DNA of 64,000 nucleotides from Mesocentrotus franciscanus (lineage: Eukaryota > Echinodermata > Echinoidea > Camarodonta > Strongylocentrotidae), in the NCBI GenBank assembly GCA_037976565.1, contig CP137680.1:23327533-23391532 (forward strand). Direction: 5' to 3'. Below the pieces are notes generated by a model, which saw only the letters and a program-made list of their open reading frames with translations, made no database searches and was not told the DNA's origin. Position 1 is the stretch's first letter, and each line of letters opens with the position of its first letter. Shown piece after piece: positions 4,011-63,756 of the stretch. Made by a program: the position numbers and the translations under genes.

Positions 4011-4018
4011 CTAGCATT

Positions 4019-4188
4019 CAGGGGCGGATCCAGCCGGCGGCAAGGGAGGGGGCCAAAAAAGGGGCCCACTTCGTGCGAAAATGTGGAAACCGTGCCGGCC
4101 GATTTTCCGCTCAGTGGGGGGGGGTAGTGAGCAATTTTTTTACTAGGGGAGGGGGCCGGGCCTGGCCACCCCTCTGGATCCGCCACTG
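4019..4188. mobile_element. hAT-type MITE, short form (170 bp) with perfect 8-bp TSD
   Basis: The element starts CAGGGGCGGATCCAG and ends CTGGATCCGCCACTG, giving short terminal inverted repeats. It is flanked on both sides by the same eight bases, CTAGCATT (4011-4018 and 4189-4196). An 8-bp target duplication and CAG..CTG ends are characteristic of hAT superfamily transposons. The interior is G-rich and holds one copy of a module reading CGTGCCGG..CCGCTCAGTGGGG..GTGAGCA. That module is present four times in the related element at 16396-16926. There is no transposase, so it was mobilised in trans. Confidence 0.9.
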
Positions 4189-5635: not shown

Positions 5636-7112
5636 ACCAATAGTAGTAACCCTAAATTAGCCATATATTGAGCCAATCTGTGAAAAAATTTAAAAGAAGC
5701 TAATTTCAACTGATTTGGGTAGGTATGGGTATGGACAACTACCAAAAAAAAGGGAGGAGGTATGGGGGTTGGGGAAATTTTTTTATTAGAGGTCAAAGGT
5801 CATTGACCCCTGCCTAAATCACTAAAAATTATATTTCAGCAACAAAATATGGTATATAGATGATCTAGGTGTCAAATTGCACAGAATTACAAAAGAAGAT
5901 GACATAAAATAATTATTGACCCTTGAGACCAAATTCTGACCTCCGAAAATGAGGTCAAAGGTCAAAAATAGACGTTTTATCACTAACATTTCATATTGGT
6001 AACAGGAAAATTACCATATTATATAAAAATGAGCACAAACAAATCAAAGAGGCTAATTTCAACTTAAGTGGCGGGTATGGGAGTTATTATTTATTCCAAG
6101 AGCAGAGAGGGAGGGGGAAATTTCCTTTCTGAGGGTCAAAGGTCATTGACCCTGCACTAAAACACTATAAATTGTTCTCAGCAACAAAATATGGTGTATA
6201 GATGATCTTGGTGTCAAAATGCACAGGATTACGAAAGAAGATGACATAGAATAATTACTGACCCTTAGAAAAAAATCCTGACCTCCGAAAATGAGGTCAA
6301 AGGTAAAAAATAGATGTTTTATCACTAAAATGTCATATAAGTAACAGGAAAATTACCATATTATATAAAAATGAGCACAAAAAAAATCGAAGAGGCTAAT
6401 TACAACTTATTGTGGCGGGTATGGGGTTTATTATTTATTCAAGAGCAGAGGGGGAGGGGGAAATTTCCTTTCTGAGGGTCAAAGGTCATTGACCCTGCAC
6501 TGAAACACTATAAATTGTATCTCAGCAGCAGCATGTTTTACATACATGTAGGCCTCGACGATCCTGGTGTCAAAATGCACAGAATTGTACTAGGAGACAA
6601 ACTAAATATGAAATGGATTCTTCACCACCAAAATACAAAGTTAAAGGTCAAAATGAGTAAGGGGGTTAAAGTTCATTAGTGGCAAATAGTTTGTGTATGT
6701 AAAGTATATGTGCATTTATAATCAACAGTTTGCAGAATACTACTCACAACTTAGAACTTACAGTAACTAACGGCAACACAATATAAATTAATACTACTCA
6801 GTCTGTTTCCTCTTCATCGCTACCAATAACTTCTTCTGCATCTATGCTATCTGTTCCATTGGAGCAATGTCCACATCACACTCCACATGCAGATACACAT
6901 GACATGCCAGCTTTCATGCAGCTGCATTTCATGTTTTGACACTGCCTCTCCTTCTTTGCAGTTGCAACAAATTCCTTTCAGAAGGTTGTCTGGCGCGATA
7001 CCAACAGACAGCATCTTTGGTCCAAGTTTTCTGTTGGAATCTAACTCCCATCCTTTTCCTTTGGGATCAAGAATAGAGGTGTCAAGATGCTTCATACCAA
7101 AACTTGAAGATG
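5636..7112. repeat. Left arm of the fold-back element
   Basis: It pairs with 8463-9836. Internally it holds about two and a half tandem units of ~335 bp (starting near 5790, 6133 and 6475). Each unit contains GGTCAAAGGTCATTGACC, a CAGCAACAAAATATGGT block, a GGTGTCAAA.TGCACAG block and ACCTCCGAAAATGAGGTCAA. The inner end overlaps the 3' coding part of the minus-strand pseudogene. Confidence 0.85.
5790..6487. promoter_or_regulatory. Array of DR1-like nuclear receptor motifs, left arm
   Basis: Five near-identical direct repeats with one-base spacing: 5790-5802 and 5952-5964 (perfect AGGTCAAAGGTCA), 6133-6145 and 6475-6487 (GGGTCAAAGGTCA), and 6294-6306 (second half AGGTAA). DR1 is the known target of RXR, HNF4 and COUP-TF receptors. 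Several copies run straight into TTGACC, adding an inverted half site. The matches are seen; receptor binding is only inferred, since the motif recurs because the repeat unit recurs. Confidence 0.4.
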
Positions 7113-8235
7113 GACACGAAGTAAATGTTGAGCTGTTGCATCTTCCGTTGGTGGAAGGCGGTCAGGATCGATATTGCCCTTGGCTGCTTGCTTCTTGAAC
7201 TTTATATAGCGAGACTTTTCTATAGGGGGATATCCCCACAGCCATATATGTGGTCTGCATTGCTTTCAACCCAGCTGTTCGAATTGTGGAGTCGGTTAAA
7301 GTGTCACTTGTGAATGCAGTAATGACACTGGCAGGTGTGCCCATGAATGCATGAAACAGTGTCGTTTCCAGATCAGCCATACTTGAAGAGGAACTCTTCT
7401 TTGTCTCTGATGTCTATGCTAGAGATGTCGTAAAGACCATTAAAGTCTGCTTGTAATTAATACAAATTAGTACAGTGGATAGGCCTATGATAGCAGAGCA
7501 ATATCAAAATATCAGTGTCCTAGGCGACAGCATTGTAGACCTAACAATCAGCGTGTCACCATCATCTTTTGCTTGGCGTACAGTGATATTGTGGCTTGCC
7601 ATCTCTGCAGATATCATCGTGATTAAGACTCCTTTGTTTTCTCATTTGCCAGGAAAACCTCTGTCACATGATATGGTCAAGTCCGGTGTGACGCTCATGT
7701 CCGGAGACACCTTCTACCCAGCCATCCGCCGCATATGTTCATGATCTTTCGTTGACGATTCTTCCCGTAGCCGTCAAACACTACAGTAGCATCCTTGAAT
7801 TTGTTTTGAACATACCTGACATATGTATCAACTATATATAGTCTTGGTTGTTGCACCTCTGGACCACTTTACCTGATGAAGTACCCACCCTCCATCAACA
7901 ACATGCATCTTGCTGTTTATTCAAATCCAAATTCATGCTTTTTGGGTTTCCTCATCATGCGATCCATTGTGAAAAGAGATGTTGGGACCAGGTTCAGCTC
8001 CTTTTGCAGGAAAAGGTTTCGGCATCTACGATAGACTGTCATATGAGTGTTGCTAGTCCATTTTCATTCGAATCGCTGTAATAATTAATGAAGAGTTGTT
8101 GATACGTCTACACTGCTTTATTAGATTCTCATATCCCTTTCTGTGCAACCTCTGTATCTTTCCTGCTTCTGAAAAGTCCTCATTACATATTTCACATACA
8201 TGTATATCCATCCATCTTGGAAATTTTGTTATTTT
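6798..8235 (-). pseudogene. Decayed member of an unnamed repetitive Cys-rich protein family (VFDGY/STKDHEHMRR)
   Basis: Reading the minus strand in shifting frames gives, in order: a Cys motif CEICNEDFSEAGK with ..RLHRKGYENLIKQCRRIN (~8215-8095); LVPTSLFTMDRMMRKP (~7990-7940); VVDGGWVLHQVKWSRGATTK (~7900-7840); YVQNKFKDATVVFDGYG, then after a one-base slip ESSTKDHEHMRRMAG (~7810-7720); FLANEKTKE; NITVRQAKDDGDTLIVRS (~7600-7530); SGNDTVSCIHG (~7370); LPPTEDATAQHLLRVHLQ (~7160-7105); LDPKGKGWEL; APDNLLKGICCNCK; CSCMKAGMSCVSACG and an acidic tail EEVIGSDEEETD with a stop at 6798. I recall this order of motifs from uncharacterised multi-copy proteins of corals, sea urchins and hemichordates. The spaced Asp-rich motifs (VVFDGY; DDGDTLIV) remind me of PIN-like nucleases, and the Cys-rich end of a zinc cluster; both are inferences. 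Several frameshifts and stops make it nonfunctional. The 3' end also lies in the inverted repeat arm. Confidence 0.7.
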
Positions 8236-8462
8236 ACAGTAGTATTCCCAAGTTAAGTCTTTTGTAAATACTATTCTCGTGTTAATAAATTGGACAGCCA
8301 GTCAGCTCTGCCATGTTTTTAATATTCTATGTCCTACGTACCCTCAAGCAGTCAATAATTCTAAGCAATGCCACAGGTTCTTAATTAGAGTCGACATCAC
8401 TTTCTCTGTTGTATACAAGACTCTCTGCAAGGTGCACCAAACTCCTCTCCTTAATAATAGTA

Positions 8463-8782
8463 ACCCATCTTCAAGTTGTGGTATGGAAGCATCTTGACAC
8501 CTCTATTTTTGATCCCAAAGGAAAAGGATGGGAGTTAGATTCCAACAGAAAACTCAGACCAAAGATGCTGTCTGTTGGTATCGCGCCAGACAACCTTCTG
8601 AAAGGAATTTGTTGCAACTGCAAAGAAGGGAGAGGCAGTGTCAAAACATGACATGCAGCTGCATGAAAGCTGGCATGTCATGTGTATCTGCATGTGGAGT
8701 GTGATGTGGACATTGCTCCAATGGAACAGATAGCATAGATTCAGAAGAAGTTATTGGTAGCGATGAAGAGGAAACAGACTGA
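8463..8782 (+). pseudogene. Second, inverted copy of the C-terminal part of the same Cys-rich gene
   Basis: The right arm encodes on the plus strand the same C-terminal segment as the left arm does on the minus strand: a KHLDTSIFDPKGKGWELDS block, APDNLLKGICCNCKE, then in a shifted frame the CSCMKAG.. Cys cluster and the acidic tail ending at 8780-8782. It starts at the arm boundary with no N-terminal part, so it can only be a fragment created with the inverted repeat. Small differences from the left copy (for example one base gained after GCCATC near 8487) show independent decay. Confidence 0.7.
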
Positions 8783-9084
8783 GTAGTATTAATTTATATT
8801 GTGTTGCCGTTAGTTACTGTAAGTTCTAAGTTGTGAGTAGTATTCTGCAAACTGTTGATTATAAATGCACATATACTTTACATACACAAACTATTTGCCA
8901 CGAATGAACTTTAACCCCTTACTCATTTTGACCTTTAACTTTGTATTTTGGTTGTGAAAAATCCATTTCATTATTTGTTTGTCTCCTGGTATAATTCTGT
9001 GCATTTTGACACCAAGATCATTGAGGCCTATGTAAAACATGCTGTTCCTGAGATACAATTTATAGTGTTTTAGTGCAGGGTCAA

Positions 9085-9691
9085 TGACCTTTGACCCTCA
9101 GAAAGGAAATTTCCCCCTCTCCCTCTGCTCTTGGAATAAATAAAAACCACCATACCCGCCACAATAAGTCTATTTTTGACCTTTGACCTCATTTTCGGAG
9201 GTCAGGATTTTATTCTAAGGGTCAGTAATTATTCTATGTCATCTTCTTTCGTAATCCTGTGCATTTTGACACCAAGATCAGCTATATACCATATTTTGTT
9301 ACTGAGATACAATTGATAGTGTTTTAGTGCAGGTCAATGACCTTTGACCCTCAGAAAGGAAATTTCCCCTCCATCTCTGCTCTTGGAAAAATAATAACCC
9401 CATACCCGCCACAATAGGTTGAAATTAGCCTATTCGATTTGTTTGTGCTCATTTTTATATAATATGGTAATTTTCCTGTTACTAATGTGACATTTTAGTG
9501 ATAAAACATCTATATTTGACCTTTGACCTCATTTTCGGAGGTCAAGATTTTATTCTAAGGGTCAGTATTTATTCTATGTCATCTTCTTTCGTAATCCTGT
9601 GCATTTTGACACCAAGATCATCTATACACCATATTTTGTTGCTGAAATAAATTTTTGTGTGATTTAGGCAGGGGTCAATGACCTTTGACCT
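9085..9691. promoter_or_regulatory. Array of DR1-like nuclear receptor motifs, right arm
   Basis: Reverse-complement DR1 matches at 9085-9097, 9177-9189, 9338-9350, 9517-9529 and 9679-9691 (TGACCTTTGACC plus C or T). They mirror the left arm, so the 4.2 kb element carries ten such sites. Function is untested. Confidence 0.4.
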
Positions 9692-9839
9692 CTAATAAAA
9701 AAATCTCCCCAACCCCCATACCTCCTCCCTTTTTTTTGGTAGTTGTCCATACCCATACCTACCCAAATCAGTTGAAATTAGCTTCTTTTAAATTTTTTCA
9801 CAGATGAACCTTAAGTTAGGGATACTATAGGTTATCCGC

Positions 9840-15960: not shown

Positions 15961-16395
15961 TTAACTTAAAAGATGTATTATTTTCCAAACGTTCCTCGTT
16001 GGTGAGAGCCAAGGCCTTTTCAAAGCAAAACATTGTTTTAAATCTATAAATGCTATCTTTATTCTCAATAATTAGTTTTTGTTTGTATCGATAAGCTAAT
16101 AAATTGAGGAATGATCATCTTACAAGAAAGTAAGTGACAACTGACCGTCAAATCAGTGAGGAAAAACCTAACCCAAATACATGTTATCTTTAGGACCCCC
16201 AAAATGATGGATTTTTATATCCGCCCACGATAAATTGCCAAATTTGCTGGATGAGGACATTAATCTGATTTATGTTAATAGTCCGAGTCAAAGTCAGTAT
16301 AATTTTGTAAAAATTCAATAATTTACAGCACGTCACGGATCATGATGACGAGTACTCTGTAACTTTCCACCGGCAGTTACCATGGTTAGTGTGCT

Positions 16396-16926
16396 CAGGG
16401 GCGGATCCAGCCGGCGGCAAGGGAGGGGCCGAAAAAGGGGCCCACTTCGTGCCAAAATTTGAAAACCGTGCCGACCGATTTTCCGCTCAGTGTGGGGGTA
16501 GTGAGCACATTTTTTTGGGGCCTCCGAAAATTGAAAATTGGAAAATCGTGCCGGTCGATTTTTCGCTCAGTGGGGGGTAGTGAGCACAATTTTTTTTGGC
16601 CTCCGAAAATTTAAAATTTGAAAATCGTGCCGGTCGATTTTTCGCTCAGTGGGGGTAGTGAGCACATTTTTTTTGTGGTTTCGCCTCCGAAAATTGAAAT
16701 TTGGAAAATCGTGCCGGTCGATTTTTCGCTCAGTGGGGGTAGTGAGCACAATTTTTTTTGGGGGGCCTCCGAAAATAAAATTGTAATTTTTTTTTTACCA
16801 CCACCCCCCCCCTTGAGCGCCAGGGAAGGGGCCCATCTTCTTCTTTTTTTCAAAAAAGGGTGTTTTTATCTTTTTTTATTTTCTAGGGAGGGCCCGAGCC
16901 CCGGGCGACCCCTGGATCCGCCACTG
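16396..16926. mobile_element. hAT-type MITE, long form (531 bp) with perfect 8-bp TSD
   Basis: The left end CAGGGGCGGATCCAGCCGG matches the element at 4019-4188, and the right end reads CTGGATCCGCCACTG. Both flanks carry AGTGTGCT (16388-16395 and 16927-16934), a perfect 8-bp duplication typical of hAT insertion. Compared with the 170-bp relative, the interior is expanded by a four-copy tandem array. There is no transposase. Confidence 0.9.
16468..16780. repeat. Four-copy ~80-bp tandem array inside the hAT MITE
   Basis: Units start with CGTGCCG(A/G)(C/T)CGATTTT near 16468, 16548, 16627 and 16711. Each continues to CGCTCAGTG..GGGGTAGTGAGCACA, a T-run and CCTCCGAAAAT. The open frames seen here on both strands simply repeat with the array. 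Confidence 0.9.
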
Positions 16927-26490: not shown

Positions 26491-26716
26491 TCTCTTCATT
26501 GAGATTTTGAATGAGAGATTAGCGGGTGCTTACAAGAGAGGCATGATGACCTTTAGAAAAGGAAGAGAGGATTTATTACTTCGAATTTAAAGAGATAAAT
26601 ATATTTGCAGATCTCAAGTCACTTGCCCAAAAAACTAGAATATTATCTTAAATGTATATATTTGAAATTGCATTCTTGATTAAATTTAAAAAACAATAAT
26701 AACGGGGCGCATGTAT

Positions 26717-26804
26717 CTTTTTTTGTTTTTGTTTTTGTTTTTGTTTTTATCATTGTTTTTGTTATTGTTTTTTGTTGTTAATGATGTTGTTGTGTTGTTG
26801 TTGT

Positions 26805-26837
<33 letters not shown>

Positions 26838-26838
26838 C
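26717..26838. repeat. (TTTTTG)n and (GAT)n microsatellite
   Basis: TTTTTG-type repeats (26717-26775) are followed by GTT and then GAT repeats (26800-26838). Unit B has the equivalent at 29336-29442 with fewer GAT units. Confidence 0.85.
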
Positions 26839-27094
26839 GAAGTTGTCGTTACGGTATTAAAATATTAGTCTTTCATTTCCGATAATTCCTCATCATTATC
26901 GCAAATACATTATTTTGATGAAACATATTTTAGGATGTTAATTTTTATCTTTTACAGATTCCGACATGAAAAATAAGGTAAGTTGAGGTTACTATGAAAT
27001 TGATTTCAAAAGAAAATCACAACAATTTGTTGACATATCCCTACTAGCAGAGCAGGCCCGCTTGCCTTTGATATTGTAAATGTTTACCTTCTGG

Positions 27095-27235
27095 AACTCT
27101 GTTTATCGCCGATAAACAAGTCTTTTCGACCAGTAAAAAGAGTTTTCGCGATATACTCAGTTTGTCTGTCGAAAAACTCAGTTTATCGGCGATTTTCTTA
27201 GTCTATCGCTTTATTTGCAAATTGGCTTGTTTGTT
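27095..27235. repeat. Block of alternating TTATCG / CGATAA motifs
   Basis: TTTATCGCCGATAAAC, TTTTCGACCAG, TCGCGATATACTCAG, CGAAAAACTCAGTTTATCGG and CTATCGCTTTATTTGC follow each other. The last part matches one end of the MITE at 32142-32365, so this is probably a truncated relative. Unit B has it at 29697-29853 with one extra motif. Confidence 0.6.
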
Positions 27236-27510
27236 TTTATACTGTAGGAACCTTCTTTACATATGCAATCTCTCCTTGGTAGGAAATCCCATCCAAGAGC
27301 CCCCACCCACTCTAATGGTCTCAAAGAGATTCTCAGATTCATTTTCTAGAGAAATGATATAGGATCAATTTTGTGCAAACTATATTTTTGCTTGTAGTGA
27401 GAGAGGCTGGTACCTGACACAAGCTCCCGATGGCCGGGATTCTCTTTTGTAATTTCCATGTTCCTATGCCTTTGTGTTATTCTGTATATTACCTGTATAT
27501 ATCGTAATTT

Positions 27511-28119
27511 ATGAATGAAAAATTTCTGGACCTCAACACTATGAAAACAAAATAGATGATAATTGACTTTAGAAAAGTAAGACCCGTAGATGCAAGTAGC
27601 CGCCCAATGAAAATAAACAGAGCGGAAATAGAGATAGTGAAATCATACAGATACCTTGGCACTGTAATTAACGACAGGTTGAAATGGGATGATAATTGTG
27701 GGGAGCTGTACAAGAAAGGGCAGCAACTGTTATATTTCCTTCGTGAACTCAACTCCTTTCACGTAGATCGCTCAATAATGTATCCCTTCTACAAGTTTGT
27801 CATAGAAAGTATACTAGTTCACGACTGCGTTGTCTGGTTCACGGCTTGTCGTTAAGTATACCTTTCTATGTTCAAAAGAATCTTTAGACAAGCGGAGAAA
27901 ATTGCAGAACGAGAAGTTGACTTCGAATATATATGTAGAAACAGAGTGCTTGAAAAGGCGAAATCGACTTATCATAACATTCGTCACCCCCTAAATAATA
28001 TTTATGTGGTTCTAAGGTCAGGAAATAGGCCGAGATCTCTGAGGTGCAGAATAAGTAGGTTTCTGAACTCATTCGTGCCTAACTCAATCAGGCTGTTGAA
28101 TGAAGAGGGTTTGGTTTAG
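27511..28119 (+). pseudogene. LINE (non-LTR retrotransposon) reverse transcriptase, C-terminal fragment, copy A
   Basis: One frame with two in-frame stops (27553-27555 and 27853-27855) encodes FLDLNTMKTK, stop, MIIDFRKVRP, SYRYLGTVINDRLKWDD, ELYKKGQQLLYFLRELNSF, FYKFVIESILVHDCVVWF, stop, then MFKRIFRQAEKIA, EKAKSTYHNIRHPL and FVPNSIRLLNEEG. This order is that of the thumb and C-terminal region of CR1/L2/Rex-like or jockey-like LINE polymerases. The catalytic palm motifs and everything upstream are missing through 5' truncation. A long 3' UTR and an AATTGAATTGAA tail follow at 28679-28708. It is not functional. Confidence 0.85.
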
Positions 28120-28378
28120 TTCTAGTCAGATACGCAAGTATATACTTTAATAAAACAACAATGTAGAATTCAATTTTGCTTACTGTTGAAATATCAAGCA
28201 AAATCTTTCGTAATTTGAGAATTGTTGACATTCCTATGTTTCTATGCTCTGATAGTCTTAATTAAATGCTCCCAAGCTGATGAAATGATAAATAGCTTTA
28301 TGATTTTTTACATTCGACAAAAGGATACCCTCTTGTTCCAAGTATGACTCTTATCGTATGGTACAAGCCTGTCTTATT

Positions 28379-28530
28379 TGATCTGAATTATGAATTTAAT
28401 TTAATCTGAATTATGAATTCAATTCAATCTGGATTATGAATTGGATTTGGTCTGAATTATGAATTGAATGTAATCTGAATTATATGAATTGAATTTGATT
28501 ACTTAAGCTGAATTATGAATTGAATTTTAG
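28379..28530. repeat. AT-rich minisatellite in the LINE 3' UTR, copy A
   Basis: About six units of a 23-26-bp repeat with core TCTGAATTATGAATTGAATT. Unit B retains about four (30983-31095), so copy number changed after the duplication. Confidence 0.8.
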
Positions 28531-28678
28531 TCTGCATTTTGTAAAATCGCATTTCGTGTTATCTTTGTTCAAATCAATTGTATTATTCTGTATCCATTTG
28601 TATCTTATTGATTTTTATAATCTGTAATTTTGAGTTGACATGCAAACGAGACAAATTTCCAATAATTGGACAATAAAT

Positions 28679-28708
28679 TTTAATTGAATTAAATTGAATT
28701 GAATAAAT
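28679..28708 (+). repeat. LINE 3' tail, copy A
   Basis: An AATTGAATT(A/G)AATTGAATTGAA tail ends the LINE copy. Simple-repeat tails of this type mark the 3' end of several non-LTR retrotransposon families. Confidence 0.6.
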
Positions 28709-30134
28709 GACTGAAATAGAATCAACATTAGTTTTGAATTAAATTGGTTATATGTTTAAGTGCTCCATAGAGTTTTAGTTCTGAAAGAAATATTTTTCGA
28801 TGAGTCGTTGAGCTTCTTCAGTTTAGAGCTGTTATAATGATTATGGGGTAGGCTTTATTATGACTAAAGAATATGTGTAAAAGTGCTCTGGAATTATAAA
28901 TTCATATTCTTAGTTGCAAAAAGAATAATATCTCGCTCGGTCGCTTCACTCCCTCGCATGATAGCAATACAGAAAGTCTATTAAAGGCTGTCGCATACTA
29001 AATTTTATGTTTATTTTGAAATATGCTCTGATTTGCCTGATTGCAAATTTGAAATGTCACATAAGCAATACTTTCGCTGGGTCTTTACTCTTCATTGAGA
29101 TTTTGAATGAGAGATTAGCGGGTCCCTTACAAGAGAGGCATGATGACGTTTAGAAAAGGAAGAGAGGATTTATTACTTCGAATTTAAAGAGATAAATATA
29201 TTTGCAGATCTCAAGTCACTTGCCCAAAAAACTAGAATATTATCTTAAATGTATATATTTGAAATTGCAGACTTGGATGTTTAATTCTTGATTAAATTTA
29301 AAAAACAATAATAACGGGGCGCATGTATCTATCTTTTTGTTTTTGTTTTTGTTTTTGTTTTTATCATTGTTTTTGTTATTGTTTTTTGTTGTTAATGATG
29401 TTGTTGTGTTGTTGTTGTTGATGATAATGATGATGATGATGACGACGTTGTCGTTACGGTATTAAAATATTAGTCTTTCATTTCCGATAATTCCTCATCA
29501 TTATCGCAAATACATTATTTTGATGAAACATATTTTAGGATGTTAATTTTTATCTTTTACAGATTCCGACATAAAAAATAAGGTAAGTTGAGGTTACTAT
29601 GAAATTGATTTCAAAAGAAAATCACAACAATTTGTTGACATATCCCTACTAGCAGAGCAGGCCCGCTTGCCTTTGATATTGTAAATGTTTGCCTTTTGGA
29701 ACTCTGTTTATCGCCGATAAACTTAATTTTCGGCGATAAACAAGTCTTTTCGACCAGTAAAAAGAGTTTTCGCGATATACTCAGTTTGTCTGTCGAAAAA
29801 CTCAGTTTATCGGCGATTTTCTTAGTCTATCGCTTTATTTGCAAATTGGCTTGTTTGTTTTTATACTGTAGGAACCTTCTTTACATATGCAATCTCTCCT
29901 TGGTAGGAAATACCATCCAAGAACCCCCACCCACTCTAATGGTCTCAAAGAGATTCTCAGATTCATTTTCTAGAGAAATGATATAGGATCAATTTTGTGC
30001 AAACTATATTTTTGCTTGTAGTGAGAGAGGCTGGTACCTGACACAAGCTCCCGATGGCCGGGATTCTCTTTTGTAATTTCCATGTTCCTATGCCTTTGTG
30101 TTATTCTGTATATTGCCTGTATATATCGTAATTT

Positions 30135-30743
30135 ATGAATGAAAAATTTCTGGACCTCAACACTATGAAAACAAAATAGATGATAATTGACTTTAGAAAA
30201 GTAAGACCCGTAGATGCAAGTAGCTGCCCAATGAAAATGAACAGAGCGGAAATAGAGATAGTGAAATCATACAGATACCTTGGCACTGTAATTAACGACA
30301 AGTTGAAATGGGATGATAATTGTGGGGAGCTGTACAAGAAAGGGCAGCAACTGTTATATTTCCTTCGTGAACTCAACTCCTTTCACGTAGATCGCTCAAT
30401 AATGTATCCCTTCTACAAGTTTGTCATAGAAAGTATACTAGTTCATGACTGCGTTGTATGGTTCACGGCTTGTCGTTAAGTATACCTTTCTATGTTCAAA
30501 AGAATCGTTAGACAAGGGGAGAAAATTGCAGAACGAGAAGTTGACTTCGAATATATATGTAGAAACAGAGTGCTTGAAAAGGCGAAATCGACTTATCATA
30601 ACATTCGTCACCCCCTAAATAATATTTATGTGGTTCTAAGGTCAGGAAATAGGCCGAGATCTCTGAGGTGCAGAATAAGTAGGTTTCTTAACTCATTCGT
30701 GCCTAACTCAATCAGGCTGTTGAATGAAGAGGGTTTGGTTTAG
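30135..30743 (+). pseudogene. LINE reverse transcriptase C-terminal fragment, copy B
   Basis: This is the duplicate of the fragment at 27511-28119, with the same two in-frame stops (30177-30179 and 30477-30479). The copy was therefore already dead before it was duplicated. A few replacements separate the copies, for example VNDK for VNDR-like positions and IVRQGEK for IFRQAEK. The 3' UTR and tail follow to about 31257. Confidence 0.85.
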
Positions 30744-31295
30744 TTCTAGTCAGATACGCAAGTATATACCTTAATAAAACAACAATGTAGAATTCAATTT
30801 TGCTTACTGTTGAAATATCAAGCAAAATCTTTCGTAATTTGAGAATTGTTGACATTCCTATGTTTCTATGCTCTGATAGTCTTAATTAAATGCTCCCAAG
30901 CTTTATGATTTTTTACATTCGAAAATAGGATACCCTCTTGTTCCAAGTGTTACTCTTATCGTATGGTACAAGCCTGTCTTATTTGATCTGAATTATGAAT
31001 TTAATTTAATCTGAATTATGAATTGAATTCAATCTGAATTATATGAATTGAATTTGATTACTTAAGCTGAATTATGAATTGAATTTTATTCTGCATTTTG
31101 TAAAATTGCATTTCGTGATATCTTTGTTCAAATCAATTGTATTATTCTGTATCCATTTGTATCTTATTGATGTTTATAATCTGTAATTTTGAGTTGACAT
31201 GCAAACGAGACAAATTTCCAATAATTGGACAATAAATTTGAATTGAATTGAATTGAATAAATGACTGAAATAGAATCAACATTAGTTTTGAATTA

Positions 31296-31572
31296 ATAAT
31301 CATAATAATAAATATAATAATAATAATCTTTTAAAGTCCACTTTAAAAGTTAAACCGAAAATGGAAATTCTTTTTGCCCGATTGATCGTGAGCCCGGCAG
31401 CCACTGAGCAGCACGAGATCGACATTGCTCTTATCCCTTTTTTGTTGAACGCCAAACAAGGTAGCAGCAACTCCAATCTTTTAACGTCTTTTGGAATGAC
31501 GCGGCCGGGGTTCGAACCCACGACCTCCCGGTTGTGAGGCGGACGTTCTACTGACTGAGCCAACACACCGGT
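31296..31572 (-). mobile_element. tRNA-derived SINE inserted in unit B
   Basis: On the minus strand the head reads GTTGGCTCAGTCAGTAGA (A box) and GGTCGTGGGTTCGAACCCC (B box, about 31510-31530). The tail at the plus-strand left end is an (AAT)n run at 31296-31328. The same locus in unit A (28735) has no insertion, which defines the edges. The 88-codon open frame starting MLAQSVERPPHNREVVGSN is the usual spurious translation of such SINE heads. No clean target duplication is visible. Confidence 0.9.
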
Positions 31573-31936
31573 TATAAATTGGTTATATGTTTAAGTGCTC
31601 CATAAAGTTTTAGTTCTGAAAGAAATATTTTTCGATGAGTCGTTGAGCTTCTTCAGTTTAGAGCTGTAATAATGATTATGGGGTACCGTAGGCTTTATTA
31701 TGACTAAAGAATATGTGTAAAAGTGCTCTGGAATTATAAATTCATATTCTTAGTTGCAAAAAGAACATTATCTCGCTCGGTCGCTTCACTCCCTCGCATG
31801 ATAGCAATACAGAAAGTCTATTAAAGGCTGTCGCATACTCAATTTTATGTTCATTTTGAAATACGCTCTGATTTGCCTGTTATTGTGATTGCAAATTTGA
31901 AATGTCACATAAGCAATACTTTCGCTGGGTCTTTAC

Positions 31937-43865: not shown

Positions 43866-45429
43866 TACCCCTAAAATCCCCGAAGAGAGTTACTTATTAT
43901 GTAAGAAATGTCTTTCGTCATTCATCAACTTTGATTGTATGCATATAAAATTTAATTATAATGAAATTATTATTGTACTTTAAAGGGCTATGCAGCCTAT
44001 ATCACAAAGATTATTAACTAAAGAATGCTAGTGATGTAGGGAAGACAAATTATTTTAAGGGGATACGGGCATTAGATATAGGAGTAGTCCCTGGAAGCTC
44101 GCTAGACTGTCAGCGTGCACTTCATTTGCTGGAAGGCTGTTCCATTCTGGGATAGAGCGTTGGGAAAATGCAAAACTGTCTATGTCGCTTCTTCCTTGGT
44201 GCATCATAAGTAGCACTGGTCTCCAGTGTGCATCAGATTACAGGATATTGGCCTGAATATTTCAAAACATTCTTGAGGAGCATGCGAAGATCCCCCCCCC
44301 CCCTTTCCTCATGTGAATATCTGCTGGTAAACACATTTCTTGTTTAATGATATTATAAGCCGTTATGGATAGGATAGCCAAAGTCGCATCATTACCTCTA
44401 GGGCAGATTCAAACTGGGGATATCTATACTAAAGAGAAAAGTTAGAATTATGCAAGTTTTATGTTATTGATAATATTGATCCTACTAAATACCATTGCTG
44501 CCCAGTTTTCAATTTGCTACCTGACGGTACTTTAAAATCTTACTGAAGAGACATAACAAACATTAAGCATGTAGGCACATAACATTTTGTCTGTGCTACG
44601 CAAAAACTGAATATTATTTTTATTCAATAAGATGTATTCAAAACCATCTAGCACGGAATTTCCACAGAACGTTGGTGATGGTATGGAGATTGTGTGATAT
44701 ATATTCTGTCCTGTTACCTGAAATAGATCAATAGAAATGTACAGGAAATTTGTGTGACTCTTTCTTATTCATGGAAAGTGCATGGTAAAATGATTTAAAT
44801 ATTTTTTCTTGAGATAGCCAAGAGATACTAGGAAATGAAAAGGTTACTTTACAATTATCGGTTTGAGTTCATTTCAGTTCATTATACTCTGTTGTGTGTA
44901 TATGCAAAACCTGAAATATGTTTACATAACATCAAACTTCAATCCAGGTCATTATGGCTGAAGTGCGTTTATACTGTATGTTACAGGACATTTAATGGCA
45001 AGAATTCTGTATTGTTACCAAATGTCTTAATATCACCTACAAGTATATACCTTACCGCTGAAATATGCTTAAACCTAACAAATACATCACCAGTGTAAAA
45101 TAAAAGGTTAATCACTTCCAATCGTTTAAATTTGGCTGCCATTTTCTTTTACACTAACTTGGTTAAACGCTTCCATGTTTCCTGCGTACCATGCAGAAAA
45201 CATATCTACTAGATCTAGTTTGAATATATTTTAACCCTACAACAAAGGTAAAGACAATTAAATCTATAGGAGGGGTACCTAATGATTTATGGACAGTAAA
45301 AGGTGTTGGCAGACATTTTGAATGGCACAATGGCACCCATCTTGGATACAATTTTCCATATCCCCCATCCAAAATGTTATAGCGATGCTATAGAAAATAG
45401 GGTCGAAGCCAGGAGGTTTGTTTACTATT

Positions 45430-45600
45430 TATTCATGATTGAGGAAGCGACACATAGTGAATTCGCCAGTCCCCGTTGGCAACACATTAATCATAAAGTC
45501 CTCGGAGAGGACTTACGACTGTTGGTACCCTGGTTGTTAGTTCCCTGGTTGCTTACAGGCATACAGATGTCTTCTTAGTATTCTTGCAAAATAAAGAATC
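45430..45600 (+). mobile_element. Degraded SINE body
   Basis: It keeps CGTTGGCAACACATTAATC, GTCCTCGGAGAGGACTTACG, CTGGTTGCTTACAGGCAT and a short AATAAAGAATCAATCC end, matching the core of the SINE at 36462-36660. The tRNA head is lost or unrecognisable. Confidence 0.6.
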
Positions 45601-46602
45601 AATCCAAACCAAACCATTCGCTATCTTTTATTCAATTCATTTTGATGCATTTGTCTTGGTCATGGGCAAGATGACATATTTATTTATTATTTATTCAGTT
45701 TTATTTCAGTAGGGTGGTTCCATTCAAGCCAAAAAGTAAATGTAATGGCCTGCTTTCCAAGGAAGCCCTACATTATACAGGTACATATTAAAATAACATC
45801 ACATTTAGTACAAAATAACCCTAATTTAACACAGAACTACGTAATAGTATAATAATTAAAAATATAAATGGATAATCTAAACGAATACATTACAAAATTA
45901 TTTGAAATAACAACAACAGTAACCAGGGCCTACAACCCATTTATTCATTATCATTGAAACACATGTAGCTGAAAACAAATGAATACTATATTTGGGGAAA
46001 AACAAAAACTAAAAATTAAGAAAGATAAAGAAAAGAAAAAACGTATGGAAGATTAAACGAGCCCCCTCCCAATTAACGGAAACAATAAGGCAGCTAAAAG
46101 TTATCAAAATTGTACATGTTTGGACTTCTAAAGAGTGTGAGATAAAGATCCGCAACATATTTTAAATAGAAGCAATGAACTACTTGATTGAATATTTAAA
46201 GGGAGTTTGTTGAAAAGATATGGACCTTGGTATTAAAAAAACTGCGTTAACGATATTCGGAAAATTCCTGGGTGGTATGTATCATTGGTATCTTTTATAG
46301 GTTCCTGGTTTTTCTTCAATACTCCGGTTGCTTTCTTCGTCCCCCTGCACGGTAGCTCATTTGACACACGTGCAGTTTTGCACAAAACGATAGGAACCAA
46401 TCGACGGAAGGATTGCTTTGTGCAACACAACGCCTTTGCAAAAATTACCCATATCCGGTCTTGGTTAGCTCCATGATAACCTTTCTTACACTGATATAGA
46501 TTATTCCTGCACGGAAAATATTTAAATTATCTTTAAGCCTTTGGTATACAGAGAGATTATTTGAGTGGCATATTAACAGTTTACCTCTTTATAACCTCTT
46601 TC

Positions 46603-46925
46603 GAGTGGTTTAAGCATTTGACTTGAAATTCAAAGGTCGTGGGTTCAATCCCAGACACAGCACTAATGCATTTTGGCAAGGCATTAATCTACATTTGCCA
46701 CTCCATACCCAGGAGAGAAATGGGGACCTGGTAGGATGACGAAAGCCTTTGTGTTAGTAATTGCCATATGTCCTCACGGTGACTATATGGTAGGAATACT
46801 CCCAGGAGGGTGGAGATGGTGCACATTCTGCATGAATGAATCTGATGACCGGGGTAATAATATCTGTAAAGCACTTAGAGACGGTATTCCGTATTAAGCG
46901 CTATATAAATCCAGATTATTAACCT
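46603..46925 (+). mobile_element. tRNA-derived SINE
   Basis: GAGTGGTTTAAGCATTTGA (A box) and GGTCGTGGGTTCAATCCC (B box, 46635-46652) are followed by the core CAAGGCATTAATCTACATTT, then ATACCCAGGAGAGAAATGGGG, and end GTATTAAGCGCTATATAAATCC. It shares its core with 41838-42116. Confidence 0.8.
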
Positions 46926-46929
46926 ACCT

Positions 46930-48870
46930 ACCTAAGATTTACCTATTGAGCAGAGGTAATATACCTAGCTATCTTGTTATCACCTTATTGAATTATTTAA
47001 AAGAAAACAACTTTATATTAAAGGTATTTACGAGTTATTATTTATCTACAGTTCCCCCAAAACGGTACAATTACCAAATATACATCATACCCTAAATATA
47101 TAAATCAGCAACCTATTAAAATATGTATATATTATGTTTATAACGTGATCTAAGAATAGAAGCGATTGATACCAAATTAAAATGAGGTTTCTTTGTTCTA
47201 TCAGCAAAATGCCTCTACAAAATATGAAAATACTTTACAAGGCATAGGCTAAGGTGCTCTTTCGTTTTCTGCACTTGACTAGTCATTACCCATTTAGAAT
47301 CATTTTTTTAATAGACAATATCTTATTGTAAATAGCATTTTTAGTGTGAGAACCATTTCTGCTGAGTATAACCATTTAGATGCCACACGGTTCTCTCCTA
47401 TCTACACCAACTTGAAAACCTTGAAATGCCGTCGACAGGCGAACGATAGAAAGGGGAAATATGAAGCAGATCCATAATCAGGTCGTAGATGCTGATAATT
47501 AAAGCTCCATCGAGGGCTTTAACGTCTAAACGTTTAATGGTCGCGTGGATGAAAATTGAGATTAATCGATATGAACAACACTTGGAGTCTGAGCTCGTAA
47601 GCACCCTGGGTTTCCTGCAGCATTGGCTTTCGCGCCTTTTTTTCATTCAGGTCACCTTTGCCGTTTGCATGCGACCTAGTTCGATTATTAATCTACATAA
47701 TTTCGGTAGTGATCACCCAGATATAGCTGAGAAGGATGTCCATGTTATGGTGAGTGTCAGCTTGGAGGCGGTTGGGGATAGTACTCCTTTAGTATATATT
47801 AAGGGGGCGAGGTTATTGCAGTCAATCAATAGGCCTCGTATCATGTCCATTATTGTTAACATAATTTTCTTGGGTTAGTATTCATATTATATAATGCTTG
47901 GGGCATGTTGGGAGGGAATTGGTCAAACTGAAATAAATGCGTGTGTAATCATCTGATGTTTTAACCCTGTTTAGTTAATACCCGTTATTGGAATAAACGG
48001 CAGCGAGATATTATATATTGCCTTTGTTGTAAATACAAAGATATTGTATTTCCACGTGGTCTATTTGCACGAATTAATTAGAAGTAATCAACAAAATAAT
48101 GTGGGCACTTGCTTCATTCCGCTGAGGCTGTAACATTCTCTTATCGTTTTTGCATTGCTGAAAATATAATAATCACTTCTTTCAAGAACAAAGCCCTCTC
48201 GAAGTAAACTAATGTATTAATATTTCATATTTTCTAACCTAGATGATGCTACATCTAGCTACAATGATGCCACTGTCCCGGTGTTGAACGTCACTTGGTG
48301 TTTATCATCTTTTGAAAAAAACTGTTGTTTTTTCCCACATTTGTCCCTCTCGACCCGGGTGTATATGTGTAGCCTGGGTAACAATAATTGCAGGCCCCGC
48401 AAGAAAGCAGTATTAAAAATGATGTGGCTGCCCTGCGTAAATATGACCAAATTACTATTGCCATTTATTTTCATTGACCACAACTATGAACTATATAGAA
48501 ACTGTTTTAACAGCATTTCAGGGATACATAATGCTAATTTTATCAACTTGTTCCTTTACTTGGAAATAGTAAGCGGTATATTGAAAATCATTAAAGTATA
48601 TTGGATCGATAGACCGAAAATACAAAGATGGCTTATACTTGTGAAATTATGTTTATGATAATACATGTACAACAGGAATTACACATGTTATTCACGGGCA
48701 CATTCGTATTTTTATGCTTATTAAAGAAATGAGAGGTATTTACGATTTGGGGGTATATTATGTCGTCTTCTTAGAGTTTCAAAACCAGAAGTGCGTTAGC
48801 TCTGTGTAAAGAAATATATGAGCCAGATTACCCTTCCCACTATCAGCAAACGATATGACCATGCAATTTA
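46930..48870. other. No recognised gene; two motif-free open frames
   Basis: The longest open frames of the duplicated block lie here: 129 codons at 47489-47878, broken by one extra T in copy 2 near 58755, and 125 codons at 48281-48658, intact in copy 2. Neither shows a domain I recognise. The second begins after a CTAACCTAG that could be a splice acceptor and is Cys-rich in its first half (SFEKNCCFF, LGNNNC), but nothing confirms it is coding. Confidence 0.3.
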
Positions 48871-49346
48871 TTTTGGGAAAGTTTGAACCCCAATTATACC
48901 AAGTATCATATATTATTTTTAGAAAGTTTAATGCTCAATCATACCAAGTATCGTTTATATTTACTTATTCATAGCCAATATACATTCAATCGTCTGGAAC
49001 TTTCCTGTTAAAAGAATTGTCCAATACACGAGATTTTGTCTGCTAATAATTAGGGCACAACCCATTTGAAGTTGATCGCAAAGACCTCGGAGACCTCATC
49101 TCAAGGGCAATTCCAATGACATTTACAATCATGCCCAGATTACGTAATGCATCATCGTTAAACTTACACATTTTGATGGTTGATGGACAAGGCTGTATAT
49201 TGAAATTGCATAAGGTGATGATTCGAAAGTCTTTGCAATCGTGCCTTAGCTCTTTGTTTAAAAATAATAATTTAACGTCATTGTGGGTCTCAGCCAAAGA
49301 CATGATCAAGCTATTTATTACGGGAAAGGTTAATGTTCTATGACAG

Positions 49347-51161
49347 TAGGGGTGATTCACTAACCGGGATTAATATCCTTCCTAAGAGCAATTTCGGGGA
49401 TTGATATTAGTCCCGGCTTAATATTAATCCCAACTCACTGGTTCACTAAAGTGCTATTAGGCTGGGATTTGATTTTCTTTTCTTTTCTTTTATTTTGCAT
49501 TCATATTACATGTAGTACACAGTTTTTTTGATAACAATAGAAATATAAAATACAATGAGCATTTTTCTGACGGTGAATTATAAATAAGCAAATATATATA
49601 GCAATTGTTATTTTCAAAAACGAAATGATAAACTGTCATAAATACTAAATTTCATCAAACATTATACAATTATTTGTGGAAGAAGGACTGTCATTGTAAG
49701 CAGATTGCTTGAAAACTAGACAGCCACAGACAATTTTAATGAATCAATTTCAAGTTCCGATGTATGAATATTCAAGTGATCAATCAACCAATCAGAAAAA
49801 TGCAAGCCAGATGCCTAAAAATAATTTGACGGCAATAAATAGTTTGTGAACGAGGATAATGGGGGTTGGCGCGCCTAATTTTGGTCATAAAATTACATCG
49901 CCGGCCGGCCGTACGCATACGCCGATCAATCAAAGAGTAATAGTCCTAGATTACATTTGCCCCGGGCGCCGTACGATAAATTGGTCTACGATTTTTTTTG
50001 TGCGATTTTGGGGGCATCGTGGGAGGCTACGGGCTACGATGTTTGTGTTTACATTATCTACGAGCATCGTGCCATTTCTTGTATTGGCCCTCGAGGGCAG
50101 GTCGGGGCAAATCCGTAGATAGGCTGCTCGGAGATTGTATGAAAATCGTGCAGTAGCCGTGCAGTCTACGCAGTCTCCGCATGGAAATTGTACGGAACCC
50201 GTGCAGCTTCCTTGCATAGGTTGCGCGGAGAAGGCGCGGTGACCGTTCAGCCGCCGTGCCGTTTTGAGCTTTTTTTGCCCCCATGTTCACCGAAAATTCG
50301 TGCGTTTTCTGCACGATCAACATGAGGCCTCCGCGCGAAGCCCGTGCGGGGATTGTGCAATGCCACCTACGGGCAGGATACGGGCTCCGTAGACTCATCG
50401 CTGGACAAATGTAATCTAGGCATAGATTCGTTACGACGTTAGAAGATGAAGAATCACGAATTCAAGAATAGGATGTGCAGTTCAGGAAAAGCAAAGATTA
50501 TGATCGCTATTTGATATTCATAATATCAGAAACAAATGCATGCTTTTCTTTTTAAAGTATACGGTACGGCAAACTTGTTGAATGGACAAACAATGACATG
50601 TAGTACGGTGCAGGTGTTGATAATTCAGTCCCATTCGTTGCCGTTCAAGTATTGAAAATTGTCGACCTTTTGATACTTGTTTGGTGATCTTTTCGTTTTC
50701 ATTGTGTGCATCATTTTCTGCAACGCAGGGAGTACCGAATCTCTGTAAATAAATCCGTGCAATAAATTAAGAGGCTACAGTTGAGTAATGTTTGTAGTTC
50801 TGTGTTGCTGTCCTTAGTTTGAATTGTATGAGGTTAATGGTATTATTTATGTTTTGACCTCGGACATTGTGGGAGTGTTTATAATAATTATATAACCAGT
50901 GAGATGGGACTTTGGAGTCTTAAGTCCCATCTTCCTGATATAACCTTGTCATTTTTAAAATTTACCATGTAGATTCTAATTAGTAATTCTATGTCTAGAT
51001 GCTATAATAGCGATCCGGATCACTCTTAGCCTTAATAGCGATTTTAATGCTAGCATTAATCCCAAATGCCTCTTACGATATTGCTCTTATGATTAATATT
51101 GAGCCTATGAGCAATTTTATCCCATTTGGGATTAATTTTAGCTATTAGTGAATCACCCCCC
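49347..51161. mobile_element. 1.8 kb TIR element with GGGGTGATTCACTAA ends
   Basis: The left end GGGGTGATTCACTAA (49349-49363) is matched by TTAGTGAATCACCCCCC (51145-51161). Both ends are followed internally by several GGGATTAAT / ATTAATCCC motifs in both orientations. No transposase-like frame was seen. A GC-rich MITE is nested inside (49945-50420). No clear target duplication is visible. The superfamily is not assigned. Confidence 0.7.
49945..50420. mobile_element. GC-rich nested MITE (476 bp)
   Basis: CCTAGATTACATTTGCCC at the left is mirrored by GGACAAATGTAATCTAGG at the right. The interior is far richer in GC and CpG than its surroundings and repeats short motifs such as CGTGCAG, GGCTACGGGCTACGA and CGTACGG. 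Open frames here (87 to 137 codons on both strands, broken differently in the two large copies) follow from the composition. Confidence 0.75.
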
Positions 51162-51373
51162 AGGTATCATCTATCATTTATTCATATCCAATATACAATA
51201 AGTCGTCTGGAACTTTCCCATGAAAGGATTTGTCCAATAAAAGGCAAAGTAAGACTCTGTGGGCGAAAGCACACTTGAACACGATCACAATTCCATAAAG
51301 TTGGAATACTACCAGTCTGAAAGGATAGATTGATAATGAAAGTTAAAGGAGAAGCTGTAGACGTGCTATACAT

Positions 51374-51624
51374 TTAAAGGGAGTGTAGCATGGCAAACAC
51401 TGGTTAACGCCATCTACGTCTTCTTTTGGACAACTGCACGTAAACGAATGGACTTGATTAACGGTAGTCAGCGACTTAATCACTACATGGTCAGCGCGCG
51501 CTAGCGTTCGCGAAACAGACCGAAGTTCTACTCACGCTTCAGGTTCGCGTATGTTGCACGCACGTGAATGCTGCGGTCGCGTCGTCCGTAGTCGTATCTC
51601 GTCGTCATGCTACACTCCCTTTAA
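51374..51624. mobile_element. TTAA-type MITE (251 bp) with 15-bp termini
   Basis: TTAAAGGGAGTGTAGCATG at the left and its exact complement at the right. Counting TTAA as the target, the termini are AGGGAGTGTAGCATG. TTAA plus an RGGG start fits Kolobok or piggyBac. The interior is rich in CpG (GTCAGCGCGCGCTAGCGTTCGCG). Confidence 0.85.
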
Positions 51625-51864
51625 GTACCTTCGCAGGGACATTTTCCGGTCCCGTTGCTCGATCTAAGGGGAGGGGTTGTAAAACCTTTGAGTACTTTTT
51701 TTACAATCTACCCCACTGAGAGAAGTTGTTGAGTCAATACGTATAAATGATTATTTTTCATTAGAGCAGTCGTGATTATTATTATTATCTAAAGAGGTAT
51801 CGAAATTTACAAAAAAGTCAGTGATTGCATGAGGTCTGATGATTTATCCTTGTTCGACCTTTCC

Positions 51865-51932
51865 TTCTCTCTCTCTCTCTCTCTCTTTTGGTTTTGTTAT
51901 GTGTGTATGTGTGTGTGTGTGTGTGTGCGTGT
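51865..51932. repeat. (CT)n and (GT)n microsatellite
   Basis: A CT run (51865-51886), then GT-type repeats (51900-51932). Copy 2 (62945-63007) has a shorter CT run. Confidence 0.9.
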
Positions 51933-52185
51933 CTTTGTTTTAAGAGAGGGGTGTATAATTATGATAGATTGCATTCAATTTTTTTTTCTGATTTGTTTTC
52001 AGTGTATATAGCCAAGGTGGATTGTTTATGTGGGTAAATATATATTTAATGACTGCCAGATTTCTTTTGTAGATTTACCAGCAGTTAAAACGTTCTTTGT
52101 AATGAAATCCTTCTTAACTTAAAGGAACACATGAGCCTTTCGATACCTTTCTTTACCATAAATATTGTCATTATAATTGTAATAA

Positions 52186-52270
52186 CAAAATCATTATCAT
52201 TACTATTTTCGTTTTATTCTTGTTACCATTATTATATTATCATTATTATTGATATTATTATTATTACATT
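52186..52270. repeat. ATT-type low-complexity tract
   Basis: ATTATTATATTATCATTATTATT-like sequence with interruptions. The open frame across it is simple-sequence. Confidence 0.6.
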
Positions 52271-52442
52271 TGTATTAATATCTTTAGGTCGAATCAATGG
52301 CAATTGCCAGTATGCTATATCCCAATGAAACAATGGTCGGATTACGTAGTACGTCATTGTAATGCTCGCGCATTTCAATGGGTTATTGACAAGGCTATTG
52401 AAATTACCTTGGGTTGATTTTTATTCGAACGTCCTGCGATCA

Positions 52443-52590
52443 GGGACCCGTTTCACAAAGCCTTTTTTCAATGACAAATGACAAAAATCAGTGACAAAAC
52501 TGCTGATAACCAATCAGAAGCAAGGATTTCAGTAGCTTATAACAAAAACTGTCATTTGTCACTGATGACAAGTTATGTGAAACGGGTCCC
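52443..52590. mobile_element. MITE with GGGACCCGTTTCAC termini (148 bp)
   Basis: GGGACCCGTTTCAC at the left is the exact complement of GTGAAACGGGTCCC at the right. Subterminal ATGACAAATGACA and CTGTCATTTGTCACTGATGAC add to the fold-back. CA lies before and AG after, so no target duplication is clear. Confidence 0.85.
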
Positions 52591-52675
52591 AGGTTCGTGA
52601 AAATCTCCAAGTGCCACATCATGGGGATCCATTGCGTAGGCCATGTGGGCCTTGAGAGTAGTTCTGAAAAGGTTA

Positions 52676-52757
52676 GATTTACCCATTGACTACTGAATTA
52701 CCTAATCCCCATAGGCTTAATACATGGAACAACCGGTTCCAGTAGGCAATGGATTAA
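52676..52757. mobile_element. Short TTAA-type MITE, third copy
   Basis: TTTACCCATTGACTACTGAA at the left and CAGTAGGCAATGGATTAAA at the right. It is the inverse orientation of the family at 3117-3194. Confidence 0.6.
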
Positions 52758-52922
52758 AACAAATCATAACCTTGTTACTCATTGTATATATGAATTCAGA
52801 GAAGTGTCAGAAGAATGTAAATGATGTGAAGGTAGTCAATACATTGGCTTAAAGTGAATCCATGTTTGCGCCCCATTGGATATTGAATTATGCCGTACCG
52901 TATACTTAAAAAAAGAAAAGCA

Positions 52923-54050
52923 TGCATTTGTTTCTGATATTATGAATATCAAATAGCGATCATAAGTGATAATTATTGCAAGAAATAAAAATATTACTTT
53001 TGCTTTTCCTGAATTGAATAATGACACACCAGAATACATATTTCCCTTGGGCGCTATGCCTCATGTCTTCGTCGTTAACGTGGTTAAATGGAAAGTAATG
53101 GGTAATATATATCCACGAATCAATGAAACGTCATCATTAACGAGAATATTTCTTGCACGTTAATACCTTGAATTATCTGTCATGGAAACAATAGATGCAA
53201 GGTTGTCGGCCTGAGAAAAGTCTTTGCAATTTAGATGAGGAATCGAATCTTTACCAGGGCGGTAGCAAAATGCATGAATACGTTTAAATACTTTAACGGT
53301 GAAACTGTATACAGTGTTACTGATGATGATAACCTTTGTAGAAATGTAATTTGAGAAACTGAGATTTAAAATGAAAATATTAAATGGGAATTCCTTTAAA
53401 GAAAGAAAATGATTCACATATAATTTGTATGCTCATCGCTTTGCTCTTCTCATTTCAGTCATACGATTTTGGTCTAAAGCTGGATCATTTTTATCCAAAG
53501 TACTTTCAATGAGGGAAAATCATAGATGAGAAGGTAAAAATTATATTTGGTGACAAATGTATAACAGGGAAACAGGTGTAACTCATATATCTAAAAATAC
53601 TAAAATGTAGCAGTGAAAAAGCTATTTAATTTATGCGAAAACCTCACCTCAGAAGAGGACAAACTTATTTATGCAGTTTGCGTACTGGTAATAATTGTAG
53701 AACAAAGGATGATAGCAGGTGAATGAAATACTTCATCACCACACATACCTGGGAAGGTATCCATAAATTTGAATGCACGTACATGATAAACGATTTCGCA
53801 TAGTAAGTCACGTTATCAAGAAAATGGCGACGCCCATGTCGTGCTGAAAACTGTACATTTACTTGATTTATTCCTCTCTCATACACTTTGGTGGGGAATC
53901 TTATAGACTAATGGGCAAGAATACAATAAATCTCTCAGAATAACTAAAGTTAATTCTCGATGAGCATTCCTTTAAGTGTTCATCTTAACGGATGACACTT
54001 TTTCTCTAATGTTAACCGTTTGGGAATGATTTTTATTCTATCAGATTTTC
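52923..54050. other. No recognised gene
   Basis: Sequence beyond the end of what can be compared with copy 2. Part of 52890-53012 is the reverse complement of 50482-50570 (see findings). Otherwise only short open frames. Confidence 0.35.
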
Positions 54051-55138: not shown

Positions 55139-56521
55139 AAGAAGACAAATTATTTTAAGGGGATACGGGCATTAGATATAGGAGTAGTCCCTGGAAGCTC
55201 GCTAGACTGTCAGCGTGCCCTTCATTTGCTGGAAGGCTGTTCCATTCTGGGATAGAGCGTTGGGAAAATGCAAAACTGTCTATGTCGCTTCTTCCTTGGT
55301 GCATCATAAGTAGCACTGGTCTCCAGTGTGCATCAGATTACAGGATATTGGCCTGAATATTTCAAAACATTCTTGAGGAGCATGCGAAGATCCCCTTTCC
55401 TCATGTGAATATCTGCTGGTAAACACATTTCTTGTTTAATGATATTATAAGCCGTTATGGATAGGATAGCCAACGTTGCATCATTACCTCTAGGGCAGAT
55501 TCAAACTGGGGATATCTATACTAAAGAGGAAAAGTTAGAATTATGCAAGTTTTATGTTATTGATAATATTGATCCTACTAAATACCATTGCTGCCCAGTT
55601 TTCAATTTGCTACCTGACGGTACTTTAAAATCTTACTGAAGAGACATAACAAACATTAAGCATGTAGGCACATAACATTTTGTCTGTGCTACGCAAAACT
55701 GAATATTATTTTTATTCAATAAGATGTATTCAAAACCATCTAGCACGGAATTTCCACAGAACGTTGGTGATGGTATGGAGATTGTGTGATATATATTCTG
55801 TCCTGTTACCTGAAATAGATCAATAGAAATGTACAGGAAATTTGTGTGACTCTTTCTTATTCATGGAAAGTGCATGGTAAAATGATTTAAATATTTTTTT
55901 CTTGAGATAGCCAAGAGATACTAGGAAATGAAAAGGTTACTTTACAATTATCGGTTTGAGTTCATTTCAGTTCATTATACTCTGTTGTGTGTATATGCAA
56001 AACCTGAAATATGTTTACATAACATCAAACTTCAATCCAGGTCATTATGGCTGAAGTGCGTTTATACTGTATGTTACAGGACATTTAATGGCAAGAATTC
56101 TGTATTGTTACCAAATGTCTTAATATCACCTACAAGTATATACCTTACCGCTGAAATATGCTTAAACCTAACAAATACATCACCAGTGTAAAATAAAAGG
56201 TTAATCACTTCCAATCGTTTAAATTTGGCGGCCATTTTCTTTTACACTAACTTGGTTAAACGCTTCCATGTTTCCTGCTTACCATGCAGAAAAAATATCT
56301 ACTAGATCTAGTTTGAATATATTTTAACCCTACAACAAAGGTAAAGACAATTACATCTATAGGAGGGGTACCTAATGATTTATGGACAGTAAAGGTGTTG
56401 GCAGACATTTTGAATGGCACAATGGCACCCATCTTGGATACAATTTTCCATATCCCCCATCCAAAATGTTATAGCGATGCTATAGAAAATAGGGTCGAAG
56501 CCAGGAGGTTTGTTTACTATT

Positions 56522-63665: not shown

Positions 63666-63756
63666 AGGTTCGTGAAAAATCTCCGAAGTGCCACATCATG
63701 GGGATCCATTGCGTAGGCCATGTGGGCCTTGAGAGTAGTTCTGAAAAGGTTAGCTT

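Follow-up and report, generated by a model that had tools for sequence, protein, structure and literature searches.

The element at positions 5644 to 9827 of a 64,000-nucleotide stretch of Mesocentrotus franciscanus DNA (the window; contig CP137680.1, positions 23,327,533 to 23,391,532 of the forward strand, or G000:C15:23327533-23391532 within the 773-Mb, 21-contig genome) is very probably a non-autonomous transposon of the cut-and-paste type that has been amplified recently, belongs to the AcademX lineage of the Academ superfamily and bears foldback-like terminal inverted repeats (TIRs) of about 1.4 kb. The element moves, and is a many-copy DNA transposon with giant TIRs. An earlier note, made from the sequence of the window, had placed a 4.2-kb long-inverted-repeat element at 5636-9836; that element is real, and its borders, derived from a copy search and a comparison of 18 two-ended copies, lie no more than 9 bases from those positions. 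The window copy is flanked by the target-site duplication (TSD) TAG on the left (5641-5643) and on the right (9828-9830), as read from the window letters and the copy comparison. In the same comparison, the termini were TAGTAACCCTAAATTAGCC... on the left and TAGTATCCCTAACTTAAGG... on the right (reverse complement), with TAG outside both.

Self-comparison of the window placed the left arm at 5644-7113 (+ strand) and the right arm at 8465-9827 (- strand), the outer ~32 bp of the left arm being unlike the right end. Positions 6405-7113 and 9169-8465 were 95.5% identical over an alignment of 714 columns; for 5676-6314 and 9805-9169, identity was 93.8% over 643 columns. A unique centre of about 1.35 kb lies between the arms. 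Direct repeats with a spacing of about 340 bp were present in each arm: repeat families D3 and D2 at 5737-6518 on the left (+ strand, spacing ~343 bp), and D4 and D6 at 9028-9673 on the right (+ strand, spacing 254 and 340 bp). The inner end of each arm holds about 105 codons of the 3' end of a gene, on the + strand in the right arm and on the - strand in the left arm. Self-comparison, repeats and gene matches therefore agree with the earlier description of ~1.4 kb arms that each carry the last part of the gene plus repeats, in opposite orientations.

The 4.2-kb element used as a query matched at least 21 places, among them that of the window copy, over a length of 3.8 kb or more and with an identity of 96% or higher; 32 of 47 candidates were scored, which makes this count a lower bound. 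When the outer 103 bp of each end served as the query (40 of 77 candidates scored per end), 41 rows were obtained for either end. Once one row that partly matched a right end had been set aside, at least 40 left ends remained, 32 of them 99-100% identical to the query; for the right end, nine rows were partial matches to left ends, and at least 32 right ends remained. These ends formed 30 left/right pairs, one of them paired by hand at a tandem junction on C13. Twenty-six pairs spanned 4.18-4.57 kb, and the others 4.08, 3.82, 1.54 and 10.57 kb. The 10.57-kb copy on C7, in which the match stops inside an arm (L026), is read as an element with other DNA inserted.

Twenty loci were fetched for TSD inspection, and all except L026 and L027 were two-ended. 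Identical 3-bp flanks were present in 15 of the 18 two-ended copies (TAG, CTT, GTT, TTG, AGT, ATA, GTT, AGT, GAT, AAG, GTT, TAG, TTA, TTA and ATA). Since L017 and L021 have their flanks in common by local duplication, 14 of these cases are independent; both loci (G000:C21, 5.93 and 5.94 Mb) have the same flanks and TSD and belong to one local regional duplication. Locus L023 (G000:C13:129291-138392) holds two head-to-tail copies with a short common junction, GGGATACTAGTAACCC, as if one copy had landed at the terminus of its neighbour or become joined to it. A query made of the joined L012 flanks (40 of 64 candidates scored) was also run, and 35 of 41 rows crossed the junction uninterrupted, the best at 98% identity; a row on C9 has a single GTT and no element. 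These empty sites are other copies of the repeat hit by the element, and are thus paralogous sites, not alleles.

Collectively, the dispersed copies, the 3-bp TSDs and the paralogous empty sites support the transposon with giant TIRs that the earlier note had put forward. The checks it had named gave a positive result: dozens of loci share the same inverted arms and ends, target duplications accompany most two-ended copies, and paralogous empty sites were found for one insertion. Long inverted duplications do occur, and the arms by themselves would fit a one-off local inverted duplication of the gene end that is not mobile. Such an event can scarcely account for an element whose borders recur in dozens of copies and which has 3-bp TSDs and empty sites, and this reading was rejected, being refuted by the copies and the TSDs.

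The gene within the window copy is broken. Its second half, comprising an EXO1/FEN-like nuclease part and a Cys-rich tail, lies at 6801-8000 (- strand) and matches residues 179-609 of the hagfish protein P0002 in several frames. A remnant of the N-terminus (CEICNEDF...) at approximately 8056-8211 (- strand) resembles that of P0110 (E 0.002 in a set of 168 sequences), and a second copy of the gene 3' end, corresponding to P0002 residues 505-609, occupies 8466-8779 (+ strand) in the right arm. The motifs VVFDGY, STKDHEHMRR and DDGDTLIV cited in the earlier note are all present on the - strand, but they do not form one open frame: VVFDGY is in another frame than the other two, and stops separate STKDHEHMRR from DDGDTLIV, indicating that the gene is broken. 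The lesions are mostly common to the copies of the element. With the gene frameshifted and its N-terminal, transposase-like half missing, the window element encodes no working transposase and is therefore non-autonomous. This loss bars the term autonomous and leaves membership by descent possible. The single gene, proposed earlier to be a mobility protein or cargo, is thus the remnant of a mobility protein, but one that does not work and lacks its N-terminal half. Ungapped stretches of the broken gene are about 87% identical to P0002, a close match that points to a possible horizontal transfer.

For this family, called multi-copy in marine invertebrates in the earlier note, we found 249 relatives, and 25 of the best 120 are 1,187-1,301 aa long. 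The structure model of the close relative P0002 has an EXO1/FEN-like nuclease fold, and profile A2 matched EXO1 among PDB sequences. A Foldseek search with the full-length model returned no row at E ≤0.001, the best rows being nucleases. Pfam scans of 7 pieces and 15 relatives, none aimed specifically at a P-element profile, yielded no family that reached its threshold; for P0120, DUF6589 matched weakly (E 2e-5), at 23.9 bits where 27 are required. A search for relatives in viral contigs gave 124 pattern matches, none of which was confirmed. Open frames of 914, 990 and 1113 aa, the first with one TAG within the matching part, occur in distant paralogues that are about 30% identical to P0002. 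In the model of P0108 (mean pLDDT 80.7), strands at 241-251, 262-272, 372-380, 410-413 and 433-436, with helices at 387-403 (before strand 410-413) and 417-427 (before 433-436), precede a long helical region; we read this N-terminal half as predicted to follow the order of elements in an RNase H core that contains an insertion. In the alignment of relatives, D247, D414 and E728 are invariant in the 32, 34 and 38 rows, respectively, that have a residue at these positions, and may represent a putative DDE triad. What sets the nuclease of this family apart from EXO1, FEN1 and XPG is its fusion to a transposase-like half on its N-terminal side and to a Cys-rich tail on its C-terminal side.

An older copy at C5:5242416 shares the left end (94% identity across bases 2-103 of the query). 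It contains, in order, the left end, about 690 bp of arm, part of the N-terminal half on the + strand, a stop-interrupted stretch of nuclease half and Cys-rich tail, and an inverted arm. The N-terminal part (L059) gave its best E, 2.5e-31, with P0139, and the right arm (L060) is inverted relative to the first and 71-91% identical to it in pieces. This copy looks like the progenitor layout, in which one gene lies between inverted arms with its tail adjoining the right arm. The window copy keeps this gene tail in its right arm and has lost the transposase-like part, and its left arm and centre hold the second half of the gene in inverted orientation, together with a fragment of the N-terminus; we infer that the right part of the element was duplicated in inverted orientation. 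The mobility protein might instead be a short stand-alone nuclease with no DDE half, a transposase of a new type. In favour of this reading, the clear homology of the 4.2-kb copy lies in its nuclease half, and the proteins P0001 and P0003-P0008, of 495-524 aa as listed, lack the N-terminal half. We consider this highly improbable, because of the 1,187-1,301-aa relatives among the best 120 of 249, the N-terminal half in the C5 copy and the piece of the long protein's N-terminus in the window relic; the short open reading frames (ORFs) may also be truncated gene calls.

Substitutions between the 18 copies averaged 0.49% (0.11-0.92%), and the two arms within one copy differ by 5.0-6.5%. The divergence of the arms exceeds that of the copies, indicating that the arms diverged before the burst and that a master that already had inverted tails was amplified recently. 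Gene tails in both orientations were also found in three diverged copies (C5:0.94 Mb, C5:31.5 Mb and C13:10.09 Mb), and the layout is therefore older than the burst.

The nuclease of AcademX is XPG-like. By the published description, AcademX has TSDs of 3-4 bp and AcademH of 9-10 bp, a difference related to the encoded nuclease or helicase (PMC10045372). The identical 3-bp flanks of 15 of the 18 two-ended copies fall within the AcademX range, and a nuclease domain is present in the relative P0002 and, in the window, only as a broken gene. Given the 3-bp TSD and the nuclease, the element was provisionally filed under AcademX. Its features fit this lineage, the assignment being made by published description. 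The gene family called unnamed in the earlier note is therefore not wholly so, its TSD length and nuclease fitting the AcademX lineage of Academ. The element resembles AcademX in its 3-bp TSDs and in the nuclease within the protein, and the predicted RNase H-type core in the 5' half may be a further likeness; it differs in that the window copy is non-autonomous and has ~1.4-kb arms containing the gene 3' end.

Several observations weigh against this assignment. PDB sequence searches with P0002 alone (one chance-level row) and with profile A1 (chance-level rows only) found no nuclease, and a weak RAG1 row (E 0.033, probability 0.33) was the only structural row towards an RNase H-type transposase. 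The transposase core of the relatives is a prediction from their own model and alignment. The C5:5242416 copy has no match over the outermost right ~47 bp. Among the 18 two-ended copies, no matching TSD was seen at L011 and none at the L023 tandem junction, and the flanks of L013 were unreadable because of an assembly gap. No autonomous partner with the same ends was found among the 40 of 77 candidates scored per end, the C7 pair being the only one more than 4.6 kb apart. This last result, the assignment by published description and the fact that TSD length alone does not fix a superfamily would also suit an element of another superfamily with 3-bp TSDs (Harbinger or CACTA-like) that carries the nuclease gene as cargo and is moved by a transposase unrelated to the relic. 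We regard such an element as improbable, because the transposase-like half and the nuclease are joined in the relatives' proteins, and both halves occur in the older C5 copy between the same kind of arms.

For an AcademX-type element, a full-length transposase made elsewhere and acting in trans would recognise the TAGTA...TACTA ends, its RNase H-type core would cut and re-join with a 3-bp stagger, and its FEN-like nuclease would trim the DNA ends. The giant arms would have arisen by copying of the gene 3' end, inverted, to the other side, with arm growth as in Galileo. Galileo, a member of the P superfamily in Drosophila, likewise has foldback-like long arms with internal direct repeats (PMC4168063, PMC3573991). 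In PMC4168063, the arms of one copy are described as having direct repeats, and the last piece of the ORF (69 bp) as having been recruited into the arms, which the paper terms so far unique to Galileo. The arms of the window element, too, carry a transposase-gene tail. Unlike the window element, with its 3-bp TSDs and nuclease-bearing family, Galileo has a P-type transposase and TSDs of 7-8 bp (PMC4168063); the likeness is therefore one of arm structure and does not extend to membership of Galileo. No report of gene-end recruitment into arms for Academ was found among the titles and abstract openings searched, a coverage that mostly excludes subscription journals.

A motif scan of the window for AGGTCAAAGGTCA, which we take to be a nuclear-receptor DR1 site, gave 10 sites when one mismatch was allowed, against 0.04 expected by chance; every one of them lies in the arms of the element. 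Five of these DR1-type motifs lie at 5790-6488 on the + strand (two exact, three with one mismatch) and five at 9085-9691 on the - strand (three exact, two with one mismatch). The exact motif occurs 5-6 times per copy in 18 copies, 103 times in total. It was present once in L059 and absent from L060, and is therefore not clearly kept in the older C5 copy. A joint proposal, in which the arms are working and long-kept (the three diverged copies also carry gene tails in both orientations), the nuclease acts on arm hairpins, the DR1 sites confer hormone-receptor control and a recent, hagfish-linked horizontal transfer took place, is rather unlikely as a whole.

Elsewhere in the window, a near-identical 8.9-kb direct duplicate (44041-52923 and 55141-64000, 98.9%), with an N gap at ~54.63-55.14 kb between the two parts, looks like an uncollapsed second haplotype or an assembly artefact. 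A tandem duplication of about 2.6 kb lies at 26492-31936 (94-95% identity in three pieces). A repeat unit of ~80 bp is arrayed in tandem at 16395-16782 (~16.4-16.8 kb), with a related single copy at 4018-4140.

If the joint proposal were true, the FEN/EXO1-type nuclease of the mobilising transposase could act on hairpins formed by the arms, the DR1-type motifs could make the element, or genes close to its ~40 insertions, subject to control by hormone receptors, and the ~87% match to the hagfish protein would be the mark of a recent horizontal transfer between marine animals that are only distantly related. For the protein family, the analysis provides a structural account (transposase-like half, EXO1/FEN-like nuclease and Cys-rich tail) of a large group for which our Pfam scans returned no match above its cut-off. 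Natural chromosome inversions were made by Galileo (PMC4168063). Ectopic recombination is promoted by long inverted arms, and in M. franciscanus the ~40 young copies could yield inversions as Galileo did. The findings suggest that growth of giant arms by uptake of a transposase-gene end also took place in a superfamily unrelated to that of Galileo, and such uptake may be a general way for ordinary transposons to become foldback elements.
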